In this document: positions 26,868 through 32,997 of the stretch, in pieces
Layout of the letters: every line of letters starts with the position of its first letter
Position numbering within the stretch: the first letter of the stretch is position 1
Assembly: GCA_010032545.1 (NCBI GenBank)
Contig: RGPT01000004.1
Span: forward strand, 1-47,677
Length of the DNA stretch: 47,677 nt
Source: Alphaproteobacteria bacterium
GTDB lineage: Bacteria > Pseudomonadota > Alphaproteobacteria > Reyranellales > Reyranellaceae
Direction of reading: 5' to 3'
The notes under the pieces: generated by a model
The model's database searches: none
Seen by the model: the letters and a program-made list of their open reading frames with translations, nothing else
What the model was told of the DNA's origin: nothing
Position numbers and translations under genes: made by a program

Positions 26868-28013
26868 CTAACGCGAGCGACCGCGCGCCGTTACCGGCCA
26901 GATCTCGACCAACGTATCGCCTTTCACCACGTGATAACTCTCGTAGAGATTGACCGTCGGGTCGCAGTGCGGCGGAACCAGGATCACCTGCTCGCCCAGG
27001 GCGGGCGCGGCCTGGCCTTCCGGAGCGATGACCGCCAGATGCTCGTCGCCCATGAAACGCGTGGTCGAACCAGCGGCGGCGCCCTTCAGGATCATGGGGG
27101 GCCCCTTCTCGGTGGCCATCGCCTTCAGGCCGGCATCGACCGTCACCATGCCTGGCGTGTTGGCGCTCACCGCCCGGGCATCGATCTGCAGCGCCTGCTC
27201 GAAGGTCGGCTTGTCCGCCCCGCGCAGGTCGCAGACGTTGTAGTCGTGGTCCATGAACACGTAGGAGCCGACCTGCAATTCGGTGAAGACGCCCAGCTTG
27301 GCATCGATGTAGTGCGTGCCGGTGCCCGAGCCGGTGACGATGGCGGGCTTCAGCCCTGCCGCATCGAGCCTCGCGAGAATGCCCCTGAGGTATTCCGTGC
27401 GTTCCTCGATCTCGGCCTTGCGCTGGGCGAAGTCGACGATGTGTTGGTGCCGGCCGCAATAGAACTGGACGCCGCCATAGTTCAGCGACTTGTGCTTCAC
27501 GACCAGCTGCACGAGCTCGAGCGCGGCCTCGGGCGAGGCGACCCCGGTACGGTGGAGGCCGGGATCGATGTCGACGATCACCGTCAGTGTCTGGCCCGCC
27601 TGGGCGGCGGCGGCGGCCAGCGCCGCGACGTTGGCCGGATGGTCGACCACGACCATCAACCCCTTCACCTTGGCGTTGAGCTCGATCAGTCGCGCGATCG
27701 CCTGCGGCGTCACCACCGGCGAGGTGATGTGCAGCCCCTCGATGCCGGCCTCGCCCAGCGCCTCGGCCTCGCCCAGCTTGGCGCAGCACACGCCCAGCGC
27801 GCCGGCCGCGATCTGCCGGCGTGCAACATCCGCCGATTTATGTGTCTTGGAATGCGGGCGGAGCTTCATGCCGTGCGCCTTGGCGAAGGACGCCATCTCC
27901 GCGATGTTGCGGTCGAGCATTTCCAGATCGAGCACCAGCGCCGGCGTGTTCAGCGAGCGCCGGGACCCCTGCTGGCCGATGAGATGGCGGTGAAGACGTT
28001 CGGCTTCGCTCAT
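26868..28013 (-). CDS. DSD1-family PLP-dependent enzyme (D-threonine aldolase / D-serine deaminase-like)
   Basis: NTPALVLDLEMLDRNIAEMASFAKAHGMKLRPHSKTHKSADVARRQ, VDIDPGLHRTGV, GSGTGTHYID, C-terminal VPPHCDPTVNLYESYHVV. Confidence 0.92.
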   Translation of the reverse strand: MSEAERLHRHLIGQQGSRRSLNTPALVLDLEMLDRNIAEMASFAKAHGMKLRPHSKTHKSADVARRQIAAGALGVCCAKLGEAEALGEAGIEGLHITSPVVTPQAIARLIELNAKVKGLMVVVDHPANVAALAAAAAQAGQTLTVIVDIDPGLHRTGVASPEAALELVQLVVKHKSLNYGGVQFYCGRHQHIVDFAQRKAEIEERTEYLRGILARLDAAGLKPAIVTGSGTGTHYIDAKLGVFTELQVGSYVFMDHDYNVCDLRGADKPTFEQALQIDARAVSANTPGMVTVDAGLKAMATEKGPPMILKGAAAGSTTRFMGDEHLAVIAPEGQAAPALGEQVILVPPHCDPTVNLYESYHVVKGDTLVEIWPVTARGRSR

Positions 28014-28784
28014 TGCTTCTGATCCCCGGATTGAAGGTTGCGCACGACCATGGCCTCGCCCGTCGAGCCGCGGTTGACGCCCGCGCTTTTCATGAAGGTG
28101 TTGTCCTTGCCCGTGCCCCACAGCGCAACACCCTGCGCCAGAAGGCCGCCATCGACCTTGACCGTCTCGCCGGTGATGAAGCGGGCATCATCCGAACAGA
28201 GAAAGGCCGCCACGTCCGCGATATGGTCGGGCTCGCCGCGATCGGGCCAGGGCTGGTGGGAGAACTGCTTCTCGTACTTGTCCGGACGGCCGCGATGAAC
28301 CAGCGGCGTCGAGATCACGCCGGGCGCGATGCCGACGACGCGGATGCGGTCAGGCCCGAGTTCGGCCGCGACATTCTCGATCAGGCTGATGCAGGCGGCC
28401 TTGGCCGCCGAATAGGCGTGGCTCCCGCCGCCGCCCACCATGCCCGCAATCGAGGCCGTCACCAGGATCACCCCACCGCCACCATGCTTCTTCATCGCCT
28501 GCGACGCATGCTTCATGCCGAGGAACACCGAGCGGGTGAGCACCGCGAAGGTGTAGTCCCAGTCCTCGACGCTGGTCTCGGCAATCGGCCCGAATGCGCC
28601 GCCGACGCCCGCGTTGAGATAAGCGATGTCGAGGCGGCCGAAGCGCTTCTCCGCCGTGGCCACCGTCGCGGCAACCGGCCACCACCACTTTCGCCCCCTC
28701 GGCGAGAAAGCGCATGACCGTCGCCCGCCCCATGCCGCTTGCACCACCGGTGACGATCGCCACCTTGCCCGCCATCCGCTTCAT
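28010..28784 (-). pseudogene. Short-chain dehydrogenase/reductase disrupted by internal deletion with frameshift
   Basis: MKRMAGKVAIVTGGASGMGRATVMRFLAEGAKVVVA in one frame, then VAATVATAEKRFGRLDIAYLNAGVGG...SAYSAAKAACI...KVDGGL in another; join at ~28,671-28,690. Confidence 0.75.
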
Positions 28785-29068: not shown

Positions 29069-30913
29069 TCAGATCTCGATCACGCCCTCGCCACCAGCAT
29101 AGAGCTTGTCGACCAGCGCGCGGCGGCGCTCCAGCGTGGCGCGCTGGTTGATATAACCCTTGTCGGTGATCTCGTGGCCGTCGACCTGCGGCGGCTCGGC
29201 CATCAGCAGCGCGCGCTTGATTCGCATCGACGAACCCGTGGCTGCGGCGTTCATCTTCGCCAGCCCGTCACGCAGCGTGGCGACCACGGCCGGATGGGCC
29301 AGCAACTCGGCCGGCGCAAGGCTTGCCTCCCCGTCGCCGGCCAGCCGGCGGCAGGCCGCGATGTTGGGAAACCCCAGGAGACCGACGTAGTCGCGGTCCT
29401 GGCCGCAGATCACCGCGTCCTGCAGAACCGGTGTGGCGGCCGCGATCGCCGTCGTGCGCAGCGTGCCGACCAACACGAAGGTGCCGCTCGTGAGCTTGAA
29501 GTCCTCGACCACGCGACCGTCGAAGACCAGGCCCCAGCTCGGATCGGTGGGATCGACGAAGCGGCCGGCGTCGCCGATCTTGTAGAAGCCCTCCTCGTCG
29601 AACATCTGCGCCGTGAGGTCGGGCTGTTTGTAATAGCCGGGGGTCACGATCACGCTCTTGAGCCTGAGCTCGTAGCGCCCCGCCTCTCCGGTCGGCACCA
29701 TTTTCAGCTGCACGCCGGGATACGGCAGGCCGATCAGCCCGACCCGCTCCGACGCCCAATGGACCGTGGTCGCCGTCGGGGCCGTCTCGGTCGAGCCCCA
29801 GCCGGTGACGAACGGCAGGCGATAGCCCGTGTACTTGACCGCCAGCGTCTCCATGCGCGTGTAGAGATCGTCCGGCAGGGTGGCGCCGCCATAGGCCAGC
29901 GTGTTGAGGTTCTTGAAGAAGCTCTTCGCCAGGGCGTCGTCTTTTTCCAGTGCGGTCGCCAGCATGGCGTAGCCCGCCGGCACGTTGGCGAAGTAGGTCG
30001 GCGATATGTCGCGCAGGTTGCGCAGCGTCTCGTCGAACAGACCGGGCAGCGGCTTGCCGTCGTCGATCCAGGTCGTGCCGCCGTCGGCCAGGTTGCCCTG
30101 GAAGGTGGCGTTGCCGCCCATCGTGTGGTTCCACGGCAGCCAGTCGAGCATGACCGGCGGCGGATCGTCCGCCTTGCGGGTCCGCGCCATCTGGCCCATG
30201 GCGAGGTTGGCGCACATCATCTCCTGGGTATTGATCACCGCCTTGGGCATGCCGGTACTGCCCGAGGTGAACAGGAACTTGGCCACCGTCTTGGGTTCGA
30301 TGCGCGCGATCGACTGCGCCACGGCGTCGGTCGGTCGGGTCGCCACCAGTTCGCTCCACGGCAACGACTGCATCGCAGGCGGCGGCTTGTCGACATGCAC
30401 CAGCAGCACGCCCGAGAGGTCGAGCGCGGCCAGCGCGCGGGCGTAGATCTCGCCGTTCTGGACGAACACGAGGCCCGGCCTGACGAGATCGAAGACGTAT
30501 TTCAGCTTGGCGTTGTCCTGGCTCATCACCGAATAGGCCGGCGACACCGGAGCAAGCGGCGCGCGCGCCTGCATGGCAGCCATGGACAGCAACGCGAACT
30601 CGATCGAGTTCGACGACAGGATCATCACCGGTCTATCCGGCCCGAAGCCGCGATCGAGCAGTGCCTGCGTGGCCGCATCAACCTGCCGCTTGGCCTCGGC
30701 GTAGGTGAGCTTCGACCATGACCGGTCGGGCCCGCGGCGCTGCGCCAGCCAGACCCGGTCCGGCGCCTCGGCCGCCCACTTGGCGAGAAAGGCCGGCACA
30801 TGTCGCTCGTAGGGTTTCAGCCGGTGGTTCGACTGCAGAACGATCGTGCCGTCGGCCCGCCGCTCGACCGCTACGTCGCGGCTCAGGAATTCGACCGGCT
30901 TGAAAGGCGCCGG
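29069..30913 (-). CDS. AMP-dependent acyl-CoA synthetase (feruloyl-CoA synthase-like)
   Basis: FLFTSGSTGMPKAVINTQEMM (AMP-binding), GWGSTETAPTAT, FDGRVVEDFKLTSGTFVLVGTLR; start assumed at MPAPFKPVEF. Confidence 0.9.
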   Translation of the reverse strand, partial: PAPFKPVEFLSRDVAVERRADGTIVLQSNHRLKPYERHVPAFLAKWAAEAPDRVWLAQRRGPDRSWSKLTYAEAKRQVDAATQALLDRGFGPDRPVMILSSNSIEFALLSMAAMQARAPLAPVSPAYSVMSQDNAKLKYVFDLVRPGLVFVQNGEIYARALAALDLSGVLLVHVDKPPPAMQSLPWSELVATRPTDAVAQSIARIEPKTVAKFLFTSGSTGMPKAVINTQEMMCANLAMGQMARTRKADDPPPVMLDWLPWNHTMGGNATFQGNLADGGTTWIDDGKPLPGLFDETLRNLRDISPTYFANVPAGYAMLATALEKDDALAKSFFKNLNTLAYGGATLPDDLYTRMETLAVKYTGYRLPFVTGWGSTETAPTATTVHWASERVGLIGLPYPGVQLKMVPTGEAGRYELRLKSVIVTPGYYKQPDLTAQMFDEEGFYKIGDAGRFVDPTDPSWGLVFDGRVVEDFKLTSGTFVLVGTLRTTAIAAATPVLQDAVICGQDRDYVGLLGFPNIAACRRLAGDGEASLAPAELLAHPAVVATLRDGLAKMNAAATGSSMRIKRALLMAEPPQVDGHEITDKGYINQRATLERRRALVDKLYAGGEGVIEI

Positions 30914-30968: not shown

Positions 30969-31481
30969 TCATCGACGCTCGATCAGCGCCAGCACCTGGT
31001 CGAAGGCCTGATCGGCAAGCATGCGCATCTCGTCGTCCGTGCGGTCCTGGATCGGATGGGGCACGTAGACCACGCCGGGCTCGAAGCCCAGCGACGCGGC
31101 CTGGGCTTCGCTTGCTTCCACGAACACCGAGGAGGCGATGTAGCCGCCGGGAATGCCTTTGTCGTCGAGGGTCTTGATGTCGTGCAGACTGCACGATGTG
31201 CAGGATCCTCAATCGGCCAGGCCTTCGATGACCAGGTCGACCTCGCTGGCGATCTTCTGCGCAAGGTCGTTTGGCGCCGGCCGGGTGAAAGTCGGCTTCT
31301 TGTAGCGCTTCACCGCCACGCCCTTCTCGCCCAGCCGCTGCTCGATCCGGTCGAGAAATATGTTGCCGCGCGGTTTGGAGATGTCGAGCAGGCCGACAGT
31401 GAGGCCTGCAATCTTGTCGGGCGGCGCCTTGCGCGTGCGCCGGGCCGGCGAGATTTCGGAGGTCGGATCGAGCAGTTCCAT
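30969..31481 (-). CDS. UGSC-family selenoprotein, 170 aa with selenocysteine at codon 91 (in-frame UGA at 31209-31211)
   Basis: MELLDPTSEISPARRTRKAPPDKIAGLTVGLLDISKPRGNIFLDRIEQRLGEKGVAVKRYKKPTFTRPAPNDLAQKIASEVDLVIEGLAD-U-GSCTSCSLHDIKTLDDKGIPGGYIASSVFVEASEAQAASLGFEPGVVYVPHPIQDRTDDEMRMLADQAFDQVLALIERR*; SECIS-like hairpin just after the UGA; the ORF track ends the ORF at the UGA. Confidence 0.88.
31180..31196 (-). promoter_or_regulatory. Candidate bacterial SECIS hairpin
   Basis: Minus-strand RNA after the UGA: GGAUCCUGCACA-UCGUGCA-GUC-UGCACGA; 7-bp perfect stem at +16..+32 counted from the U of UGA, with G23 and U24 in the apical loop. Confidence 0.75.
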
Positions 31482-31493
31482 GGCGTTCTCCTC

Positions 31494-32858
31494 TCAGTCC
31501 CTGATGGCGTGGGTGACCGGCGTGCTGCCGATCGCACCGGACGCGCCCCAACCGGCGATCATGGCGGAAAACATACCGGCATCGCCGCCGGCACGCACGA
31601 TCAACAGCCCGTCCTTGCGAAATTTCGGGATCGTCTTGCGATCGCCAAGTGCTGCGGCCGGCACGCCTTCGGCGATGCCGCCCGCGCCGCGCACGACCTC
31701 TTCGGCCGGCAGCTGAAGCAGACCGTCGAGTTCCTGGCGCAGACGCGCCTTCGTCCAGCCGGCCGCCTTGAAGGTGCGCTCATGTTCGGGGCAGACCACC
31801 AGGATCGCGTCGGCGCCCTGCGCCAGCTTCCAGTGGTTCACGCCGCGCAGGCTGAGCGCAAAGGTACGGCTGAGCGATTCGGGCGTGCGCGACTGCTGGT
31901 CGACGATGCCGTGGACGGCGTCGCCGGCGAACACCGTCACCGTGCTGACGCCTGCCGCAAAGCCGCGCTCGACGGACAGCGGCTCCCAGAACGAATGTTC
32001 CTCGTCCTCGGCGAAGCAGAAGGTGTACTTACCCGGCGTGCCAAGGGTCGAGCGATCGACACCCTGCGGCCGGCCGCCGCCGACGTTGCGCACGCAGAGC
32101 TGGACCGCGCGGCCGATGGTGGCGTTGGCGCGGTTGCCCTGGCCCAGGGCGTTGCCGCGCGCATTCATGCCGATCGCCCGCGCCACCGGACCGTTCACAA
32201 TCACGATGGGCGTGCAGAACATGGTCGTGGCCAGCACGCCGTGCATCGGCTGGAGGTCGGGCGGCAGCAGGCCCAACACCTCGGACGGCTTGCGGTTGGT
32301 ACCCTTCAACATGCGATGGACACGCAGACGCGTCGGCGGCACCAGCGGCAGGCCGTCCGACCAGCCGCGCGAATACATCGCCTCGATCTCGTCCTCGTGC
32401 GGGTCGATCTCGATCCGCCGCGACTGGAATGCCACGTCGCCATACTTGATCTCGAGTTCATCGATGATGCCGGGCTCGACCGACTTCGAGCCACAGCCCG
32501 GCCGCCACTCCGGCAGACCTTCGCCCAGCGAATTGACCCCCGTGAGCGCCCGCCACTCGTCGCGCTGCCAGCCGACCACGCGCTCGATCTCGCGGCCGCC
32601 TTCCATCCGGATCAGGGTCGGCACCGTTTCTATGGCCAGCCGGAACGACACTTCGAGCGCACGGTCGTCGCGCACGCCGGCCACGCCCTCGGGAAAGGTC
32701 GGGTCGTCCTGGCTGTAGACGGCGATCGTGCGCGGGCCGCCGACCAGCTCGCGCACCACGGGCTGTACCAGTTCGCAGGTCTGGCAATCGCGCTTTGCGA
32801 CCAGGACGAATCCGTCGTTCACCCCTGTCACGGCATTCGCGGCGGTGCTGGCGCTCAC
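31494..32858 (-). CDS. Thioredoxin-like domain (CQTC) fused to a large uncharacterised domain; likely partner of the UGSC selenoprotein
   Basis: GFVLVAKRDCQTCELVQPVVRELVGG...ALEVSFRLAIETVPTLIRMEGGREIERVVGW, then a ~340-aa domain (RGWSDGLPLVPPTRLRVHRML...); GTG start preceded by AAGGAG; 12-nt gap to the selenoprotein gene. Confidence 0.8.
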   Translation of the reverse strand: MSASTAANAVTGVNDGFVLVAKRDCQTCELVQPVVRELVGGPRTIAVYSQDDPTFPEGVAGVRDDRALEVSFRLAIETVPTLIRMEGGREIERVVGWQRDEWRALTGVNSLGEGLPEWRPGCGSKSVEPGIIDELEIKYGDVAFQSRRIEIDPHEDEIEAMYSRGWSDGLPLVPPTRLRVHRMLKGTNRKPSEVLGLLPPDLQPMHGVLATTMFCTPIVIVNGPVARAIGMNARGNALGQGNRANATIGRAVQLCVRNVGGGRPQGVDRSTLGTPGKYTFCFAEDEEHSFWEPLSVERGFAAGVSTVTVFAGDAVHGIVDQQSRTPESLSRTFALSLRGVNHWKLAQGADAILVVCPEHERTFKAAGWTKARLRQELDGLLQLPAEEVVRGAGGIAEGVPAAALGDRKTIPKFRKDGLLIVRAGGDAGMFSAMIAGWGASGAIGSTPVTHAIRD

Positions 32859-32997
32859 TTCCCAGACTCCTTCTCGTTCATGTCGTCCGCACGCCGAAAC
32901 CGGGTGCGGCACCTTGGGCGTTTCGACGCCCTGAATGGCCGTTCACATTGCCACCATTTTCGGCCAGAGTCCGCCCCAGCAAAAAAGGGAGAGAGCG

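Follow-up and report, generated by a model that had tools for sequence, protein, structure and literature searches.

The UGSC selenoprotein and its large partner domain PART: an obligate pair with a replaceable thioredoxin module and a candidate two-subunit selenoenzyme

The UGSC family selenoprotein encoded in the 47,677-nucleotide stretch of DNA analyzed here (the window) is obligately paired with a large protein domain, and the two occur together far beyond chance. We named this domain, which lies C-terminal of a thioredoxin (Trx) domain in the gene directly upstream, PART. Because the two are linked, are found in the same genomes and are fused into single polypeptides, UGSC and PART constitute the core of the system, and the Trx domain is a replaceable module. 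The original prediction had proposed a two-component redox system consisting of the Trx-like fusion protein and the selenoprotein; the pairing is supported, and the roles are refined in that the core is formed by UGSC and the large domain. We consider it reasonably probable that Trx-PART and UGSC are two subunits of one selenoenzyme, in which PART would bind the substrate, the selenocysteine (Sec) of UGSC would cleave it reductively and the Trx domain would re-reduce the enzyme. The features of the locus are as follows.

31494..32858, minus strand: Trx-PART gene, 454 aa plus stop (open reading frame and translation; thioredoxin matches)
32537..32858, limits approximate, minus strand: N-terminal thioredoxin domain (AlphaFold2 model of the relative L018, Foldseek, profile match)
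32775-32786 (codons), minus strand: CQTC of the Trx domain, with the cis-Pro motif TVPTLIR (VPT) further on
31497..32396, limits approximate, minus strand: PART domain, about 330 aa (alignments A2 and A3)
32246..32247, minus strand: point at which 108 nt (36 aa) present in other copies are missing in frame (alignments including L018)
ATG at 31481 to about 30969, minus strand: UGSC family selenoprotein, with Sec in UGSCTSC (PF24696 / NF041046 match)
31209..31211, minus strand: in-frame TGA credibly read as Sec (motif UGSCTSC; SelB and tRNA-Sec in the genome)
31163..31213, minus strand: SECIS-like hairpin that begins at the UGA and runs 3' (fold -19.8 kcal/mol, z -2.43)
ATG at 30913, minus strand: acyl-CoA synthetase

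Re-translation confirmed the arrangement initially described, namely the 454-aa open reading frame with its CQTC and cis-Pro region, the UGSC ATG 12 nt past the Trx-PART stop on the same strand, and the acyl-CoA synthetase 55 nt past the end of UGSC. The Trx-PART gene starts with GTG at 32858, with an earlier in-frame GTG at 32912, and its stop codon occupies 31494-31496. The UGSC protein scored above the cut-offs of both family models (PF24696, E 7e-40, 137.4 bits against a cut-off of 25; NF041046, E 6e-43, 146.4 bits against a cut-off of 125) and is thus a family member. Nearly all of the surveyed UGSC genes have a TGA at this codon, and the SelB and tRNA-Sec genes lie side by side on contig C244 of the window's genome. 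Since this decoding machinery is encoded in the genome and a hairpin follows the UGA, Sec decoding of the TGA in the window is credible. Elsewhere in the window (26871-28121, minus strand), a D-serine dehydratase-like / alanine racemase N-terminal domain protein is encoded beside SDR, glyoxalase and amidohydrolase genes.

We searched genome contigs for the closest relatives of PART and found UGSC directly 3' of PART on the same strand in 79 out of 80 cases, drawn from at least seven phyla (Pseudomonadota, Chloroflexota, Actinomycetota, Myxococcota, Gemmatimonadota, SAR324 and Hydrogenedentota). The two genes overlapped or were at most 60 nt apart in 66 of 78 loci, and a search downstream of the sole exception (L079) found no UGSC. 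When 289 genomes of the class were surveyed, UGSC was detected in 28 and PART in the identical 28 (hypergeometric P of about 1e-39, uncorrected for kinship). Conserved linkage across genomes, on which the original prediction depended, was therefore observed both at the partner loci and in the class as a whole. Up to eight UGSC paralogs were present per genome; the window's genome carries five UGSC genes, four of which adjoin PART, with the fifth at a contig edge.

We further identified natural UGSC-PART fusions (11 genes in 10 genomes), in which a single chain of about 575 aa is encoded, often with another PART gene behind it. One fusion was modeled from an alignment combining fused and unfused rows, yielding a mean pLDDT of 92.8 and a pTM of 0.93, and the latter value indicates a confident relative placement of the UGSC and PART parts. 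The pairwise distances of UGSC and PART were also strongly correlated (Mantel r 0.95, and 0.81 inside the Trx subfamily), with a contribution from species kinship. The FtsZ matches obtained with this model were rejected as meaningless, having an rmsd of about 19 A and TM values mostly <0.3. A UGSC/Unknown_1 fusion is mentioned by Zhang and Gladyshev 2008 (PMC2398784), and Unknown_1 may be PART.

The N-terminal domain of Trx-PART is, according to structure prediction, a thioredoxin fold and not a classical thioredoxin. Single-sequence searches gave weak thioredoxin matches only. The AlphaFold2 model of a relative that is 88% identical (L018; mean pLDDT 94.8, pTM 0.90) matched many thioredoxins over its N-terminus with a Foldseek probability of 1.00, a profile of 72 relatives matched solved thioredoxins (E 5.6e-5), and in a search of a viral library thioredoxins were the sole matches. 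The model, Foldseek and the profile thus agree with the thioredoxin-like assignment made at the outset. Both Cys residues of the CxTC motif, the cis-Pro and a linker Cys (PGCGS) were invariant in all 55 Trx-fused alignment rows. The domain shares the fold, a CxxC motif and the cis-Pro with thioredoxin, whereas CxTC replaces CGPC, the domain is fused to PART, and its score falls far short of the cut-off for the thioredoxin equivalog (TIGR01068; 15.3 versus 96.8 bits).

PART itself, described originally as a domain without an assignable motif, matched no family in Pfam or NCBIfam, and no fold was recognized for it in the PDB (Foldseek with the L018 model) despite the high-confidence prediction. 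In the plasmids checked, PART genes were annotated as "hypothetical protein" where they were annotated at all. The domain carries the motifs G-W-S/T-D-G-L-P-x-V-P-P-T, GNRANATIGRA and GGxAG, in this order; DGLPxVPPT within the first of them and the other two are invariant or near-invariant, and the Cys of a further motif, NAVMAGC, was present in 71 of 72 rows. Candidate assignments were rejected for cyanuric acid hydrolase as the fold (probability 0.25, TM 0.14), for a remote PrdB relative (hhalign probability 1%) and for GrdE/PrdA, as no PART member matched the pyruvoyl subunit model PF09338. At one locus of the class (L122/L143; G246:C330), the UGSC gene encodes CGSC and has no TGA, and its PART has Ala in place of the near-invariant NAVMAGC Cys.

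Comparison among relatives suggests that the Trx domain is probably the electron supply of UGSC and PART. If the Trx domain is the donor, relatives lacking it are expected to possess a substitute, and most of them do. A C-terminal CxDC or CxxxxC tail was found in 16 of 18 Trx-less partners in simple pairs, compared with none of about 91 Trx-fused proteins (Fisher P 3e-17, uncorrected for kinship; nine Trx-fused rows unmatched by the pattern were assigned by eye). Other Trx-less loci have thioredoxin system genes nearby: the gene order is trxB-trxA-PART-UGSC in Arthrobacter and PART-UGSC-trxB in Roseovarius, trxB lies near UGSC-PART in Variovorax, and in the window's own genome one contig (G000:C63, L015:3751-7165) carries a cluster of a second type, with the gene of a TrxB-like flavoprotein directly before UGSC and then PART and a second PART, all on one strand. 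Adjacent trxB is uncommon overall, occurring in 2 of 23 Trx-less stretches of the class survey and, at a distance, in 4 of 80 Trx-fused loci; neither tail nor trxB was seen for two Trx-less partners (C58 and L104). The dithiol tails and the neighboring trxB and trxA genes support the relay from CxTC to Sec that had been proposed, in which the electron flow would follow this direction. In some Burkholderiales-type loci (L060, L063, L067 and L085), a gene for a glutathione-dependent disulfide-bond oxidoreductase of the YghU type is located immediately upstream of Trx-PART.

We compared UGSC with the Sec subunits of glycine and proline reductases. The UGSC profile could be aligned over 71 columns to PrdB-like Sec proteins from the same class, with Sec placed on Sec (hhalign E 3.2e-6, probability 88). 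The model of glycine reductase selenoprotein B (GrdB) was matched by 22 of 38 UGSC members (best E 1.7e-4) and that of PrdB by six. Scores of 16.7 and 14.8 bits were far below the curated cut-offs of 800 and 602 bits (TIGR01917 and TIGR04483), and there was no match to PF07355. The likeness spans the Sec half only, about 70 residues. On sequence grounds, UGSC is best interpreted as a distant relative of the GrdB/PrdB Sec module that stands alone, and because of this remote relationship Sec-dependent reductive cleavage appears to be its likeliest chemistry. Among GrdB relatives, cleavage of C-N bonds and, for FarB, of C-F bonds is known or has been proposed (PMC10838667).

Like PrdA/PrdB and GrdB/GrdE (PF07355, PF09338), the pair has its Sec on a subunit of its own, in a UxxC motif that follows a beta-strand, a larger partner and, probably, reduction by a thiol system. 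Unlike those enzymes, PART has no pyruvoyl-subunit match and UGSC scores far under the GrdB cut-offs, and the PF09338 gene was found in none of the 299 genomes of the phylum sample. As a pyruvoyl subunit was neither found nor resembled, the GrdB/PrdB mechanism cannot carry over unchanged. The proposed fluoroacetate reductase FarB/FarE (PMC10838667) is similar in that a GrdB-type Sec protein was assigned to another bond (C-F) from genomics and transcription, whereas it belongs to an anaerobe, has a GrdE-type partner and is without a fused thioredoxin. Many genomes of the class (L161-L180) and the window's own genome (C557:28560-28772) also encode PrdB-like (PF07355) proteins whose UxxC position carries an in-frame TGA, although PF09338 was not found in the phylum sample.

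In the mechanism that we favor, PART and UGSC would pack together to form the active site, and PART would bind the substrate. The Sec of UGSC would sit at a helix N-terminus behind a beta-strand, as in GrdB/PrdB, and would attack an electrophilic center of the substrate, so that a bond is cleaved reductively. The neighboring Cys of the UGSC motif, or the PART Cys of NAVMAGC, might then displace the product and leave a Se-S bridge, which would be reduced by the CxTC Trx domain fused to PART; cellular thioredoxin reductase would finally recharge the Trx domain. Of this scheme, the Trx fold, the pairing, the fusions, the confident packing in the fusion model, the alternative thiol donors and the remote homology to the GrdB/PrdB Sec region come from the computed results, and the electron flow, the cleavage chemistry and the roles of individual Cys residues are those that we infer. 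Since several paralogous pairs occur per genome and their catabolic neighborhoods vary, different pairs are suggested to act on different small organic substrates.

A second reading, which we regard as rather unlikely, is that UGSC and PART act in detoxification, as a thioredoxin-dependent peroxidase or a sulfoxide/disulfide reductase whose Sec would be oxidized by peroxide or a similar oxidant, form a Se-S bond with a resolving Cys and be reduced by Trx. The dedicated thiol donors and a resolving Cys placed three residues after the Sec would fit this chemistry equally well, and a Trx-like fold was expected for UGSC in the 2008 GOS paper (PMC2398784). However, UGSC resembles GrdB/PrdB and not the peroxiredoxin or GPx families, and a conserved 330-aa partner together with up to eight paralogs amid catabolic genes is better suited to a substrate-specific enzyme.

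The neighborhoods raise the further idea, which we consider highly improbable, that the pair serves selenium metabolism, in Se delivery or recycling. In a sizeable minority of the loci UGSC is followed by SelA/SelB genes, with the SelA cluster in 17 of 80, but the operon's own need for Sec decoding also accounts for this adjacency. Moreover, Cys forms (CGSC) that retain PART as a neighbor or in a fusion were found in plasmid-bearing strains of haloarchaea, Arthrobacter, Roseovarius and Variovorax; these indicate that Sec is replaceable and speak against this idea. Marginally less credible still is that PART merely shares the operon as an enzyme or regulator unrelated to UGSC, with Trx serving PART alone and UGSC acting by itself. 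One genome (G065), in which UGSC and PART are on separate contigs, speaks for this reading; the shared 28 of 289 genomes, the 11 fusions, the packing at a pTM of 0.93 and the co-varying distances speak against it. At several loci (L022, L023, L050, L051, L058 and others), selA and selB lie directly 3' of Trx-PART/UGSC, as if travelling together.

The copy of Trx-PART in the window may be damaged. The 36-aa segment missing from the window protein is the conserved one containing NAVMAGC with its near-invariant Cys, and it is present in L018. On paralogous contigs of the same assembly, one (C240) ends inside this segment and another (C302) collapses just after it, and the two share an identical 24-nt string at the segment. 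The gap is either a deletion or an assembly error; the latter is plausible, and for this reason we draw no inference about the activity of the window copy.

Since 2008, UGSC proteins have ranked with the most common selenoproteins of environmental samples, and the literature examined assigns no function to it. The family entries (NF041046 / PF24696) and reviews name neither function nor partner; the present analysis links it to an obligate partner and to dithiol donors and, remotely, to GrdB/PrdB. With the partner, the probable electron donor and a probable GrdB/PrdB-like chemistry named, the orphan selenoprotein becomes a candidate two-protein enzyme, and PART becomes a newly named, widespread domain without a Pfam or NCBIfam family. 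More tentatively, at slightly less than even confidence, UGSC-PART might represent a large unrecognized class of two-subunit selenoenzymes with a partner of unrecognized fold and a built-in thiol donor (Trx or a CxDC tail), whose many paralogs would act by reductive cleavage on different organic substrates, in bacteria and, in the Cys form, in haloarchaea, as a counterpart of glycine/proline reductase without the pyruvoyl group. UGSC-PART lends itself to expression, to reduction by thioredoxin and to substrate screening, and the haloarchaeal or Variovorax Cys forms would avoid the use of Sec.

The acyl-CoA synthetase, noted initially as following the selenoprotein, did not prove to be a conserved neighbor, as its gene cluster occurs in the window and L018 only, and it was rejected as a component of the system. 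The neighbors are otherwise variable and include transporters, CoA-ligases, CoA-transferases and amidohydrolases. An annotated phosphosulfolactate synthase is encoded near UGSC-PART in Natrinema, a haloarchaeon, and in Arthrobacter (L193 and L195), which is a possible clue to a substrate.
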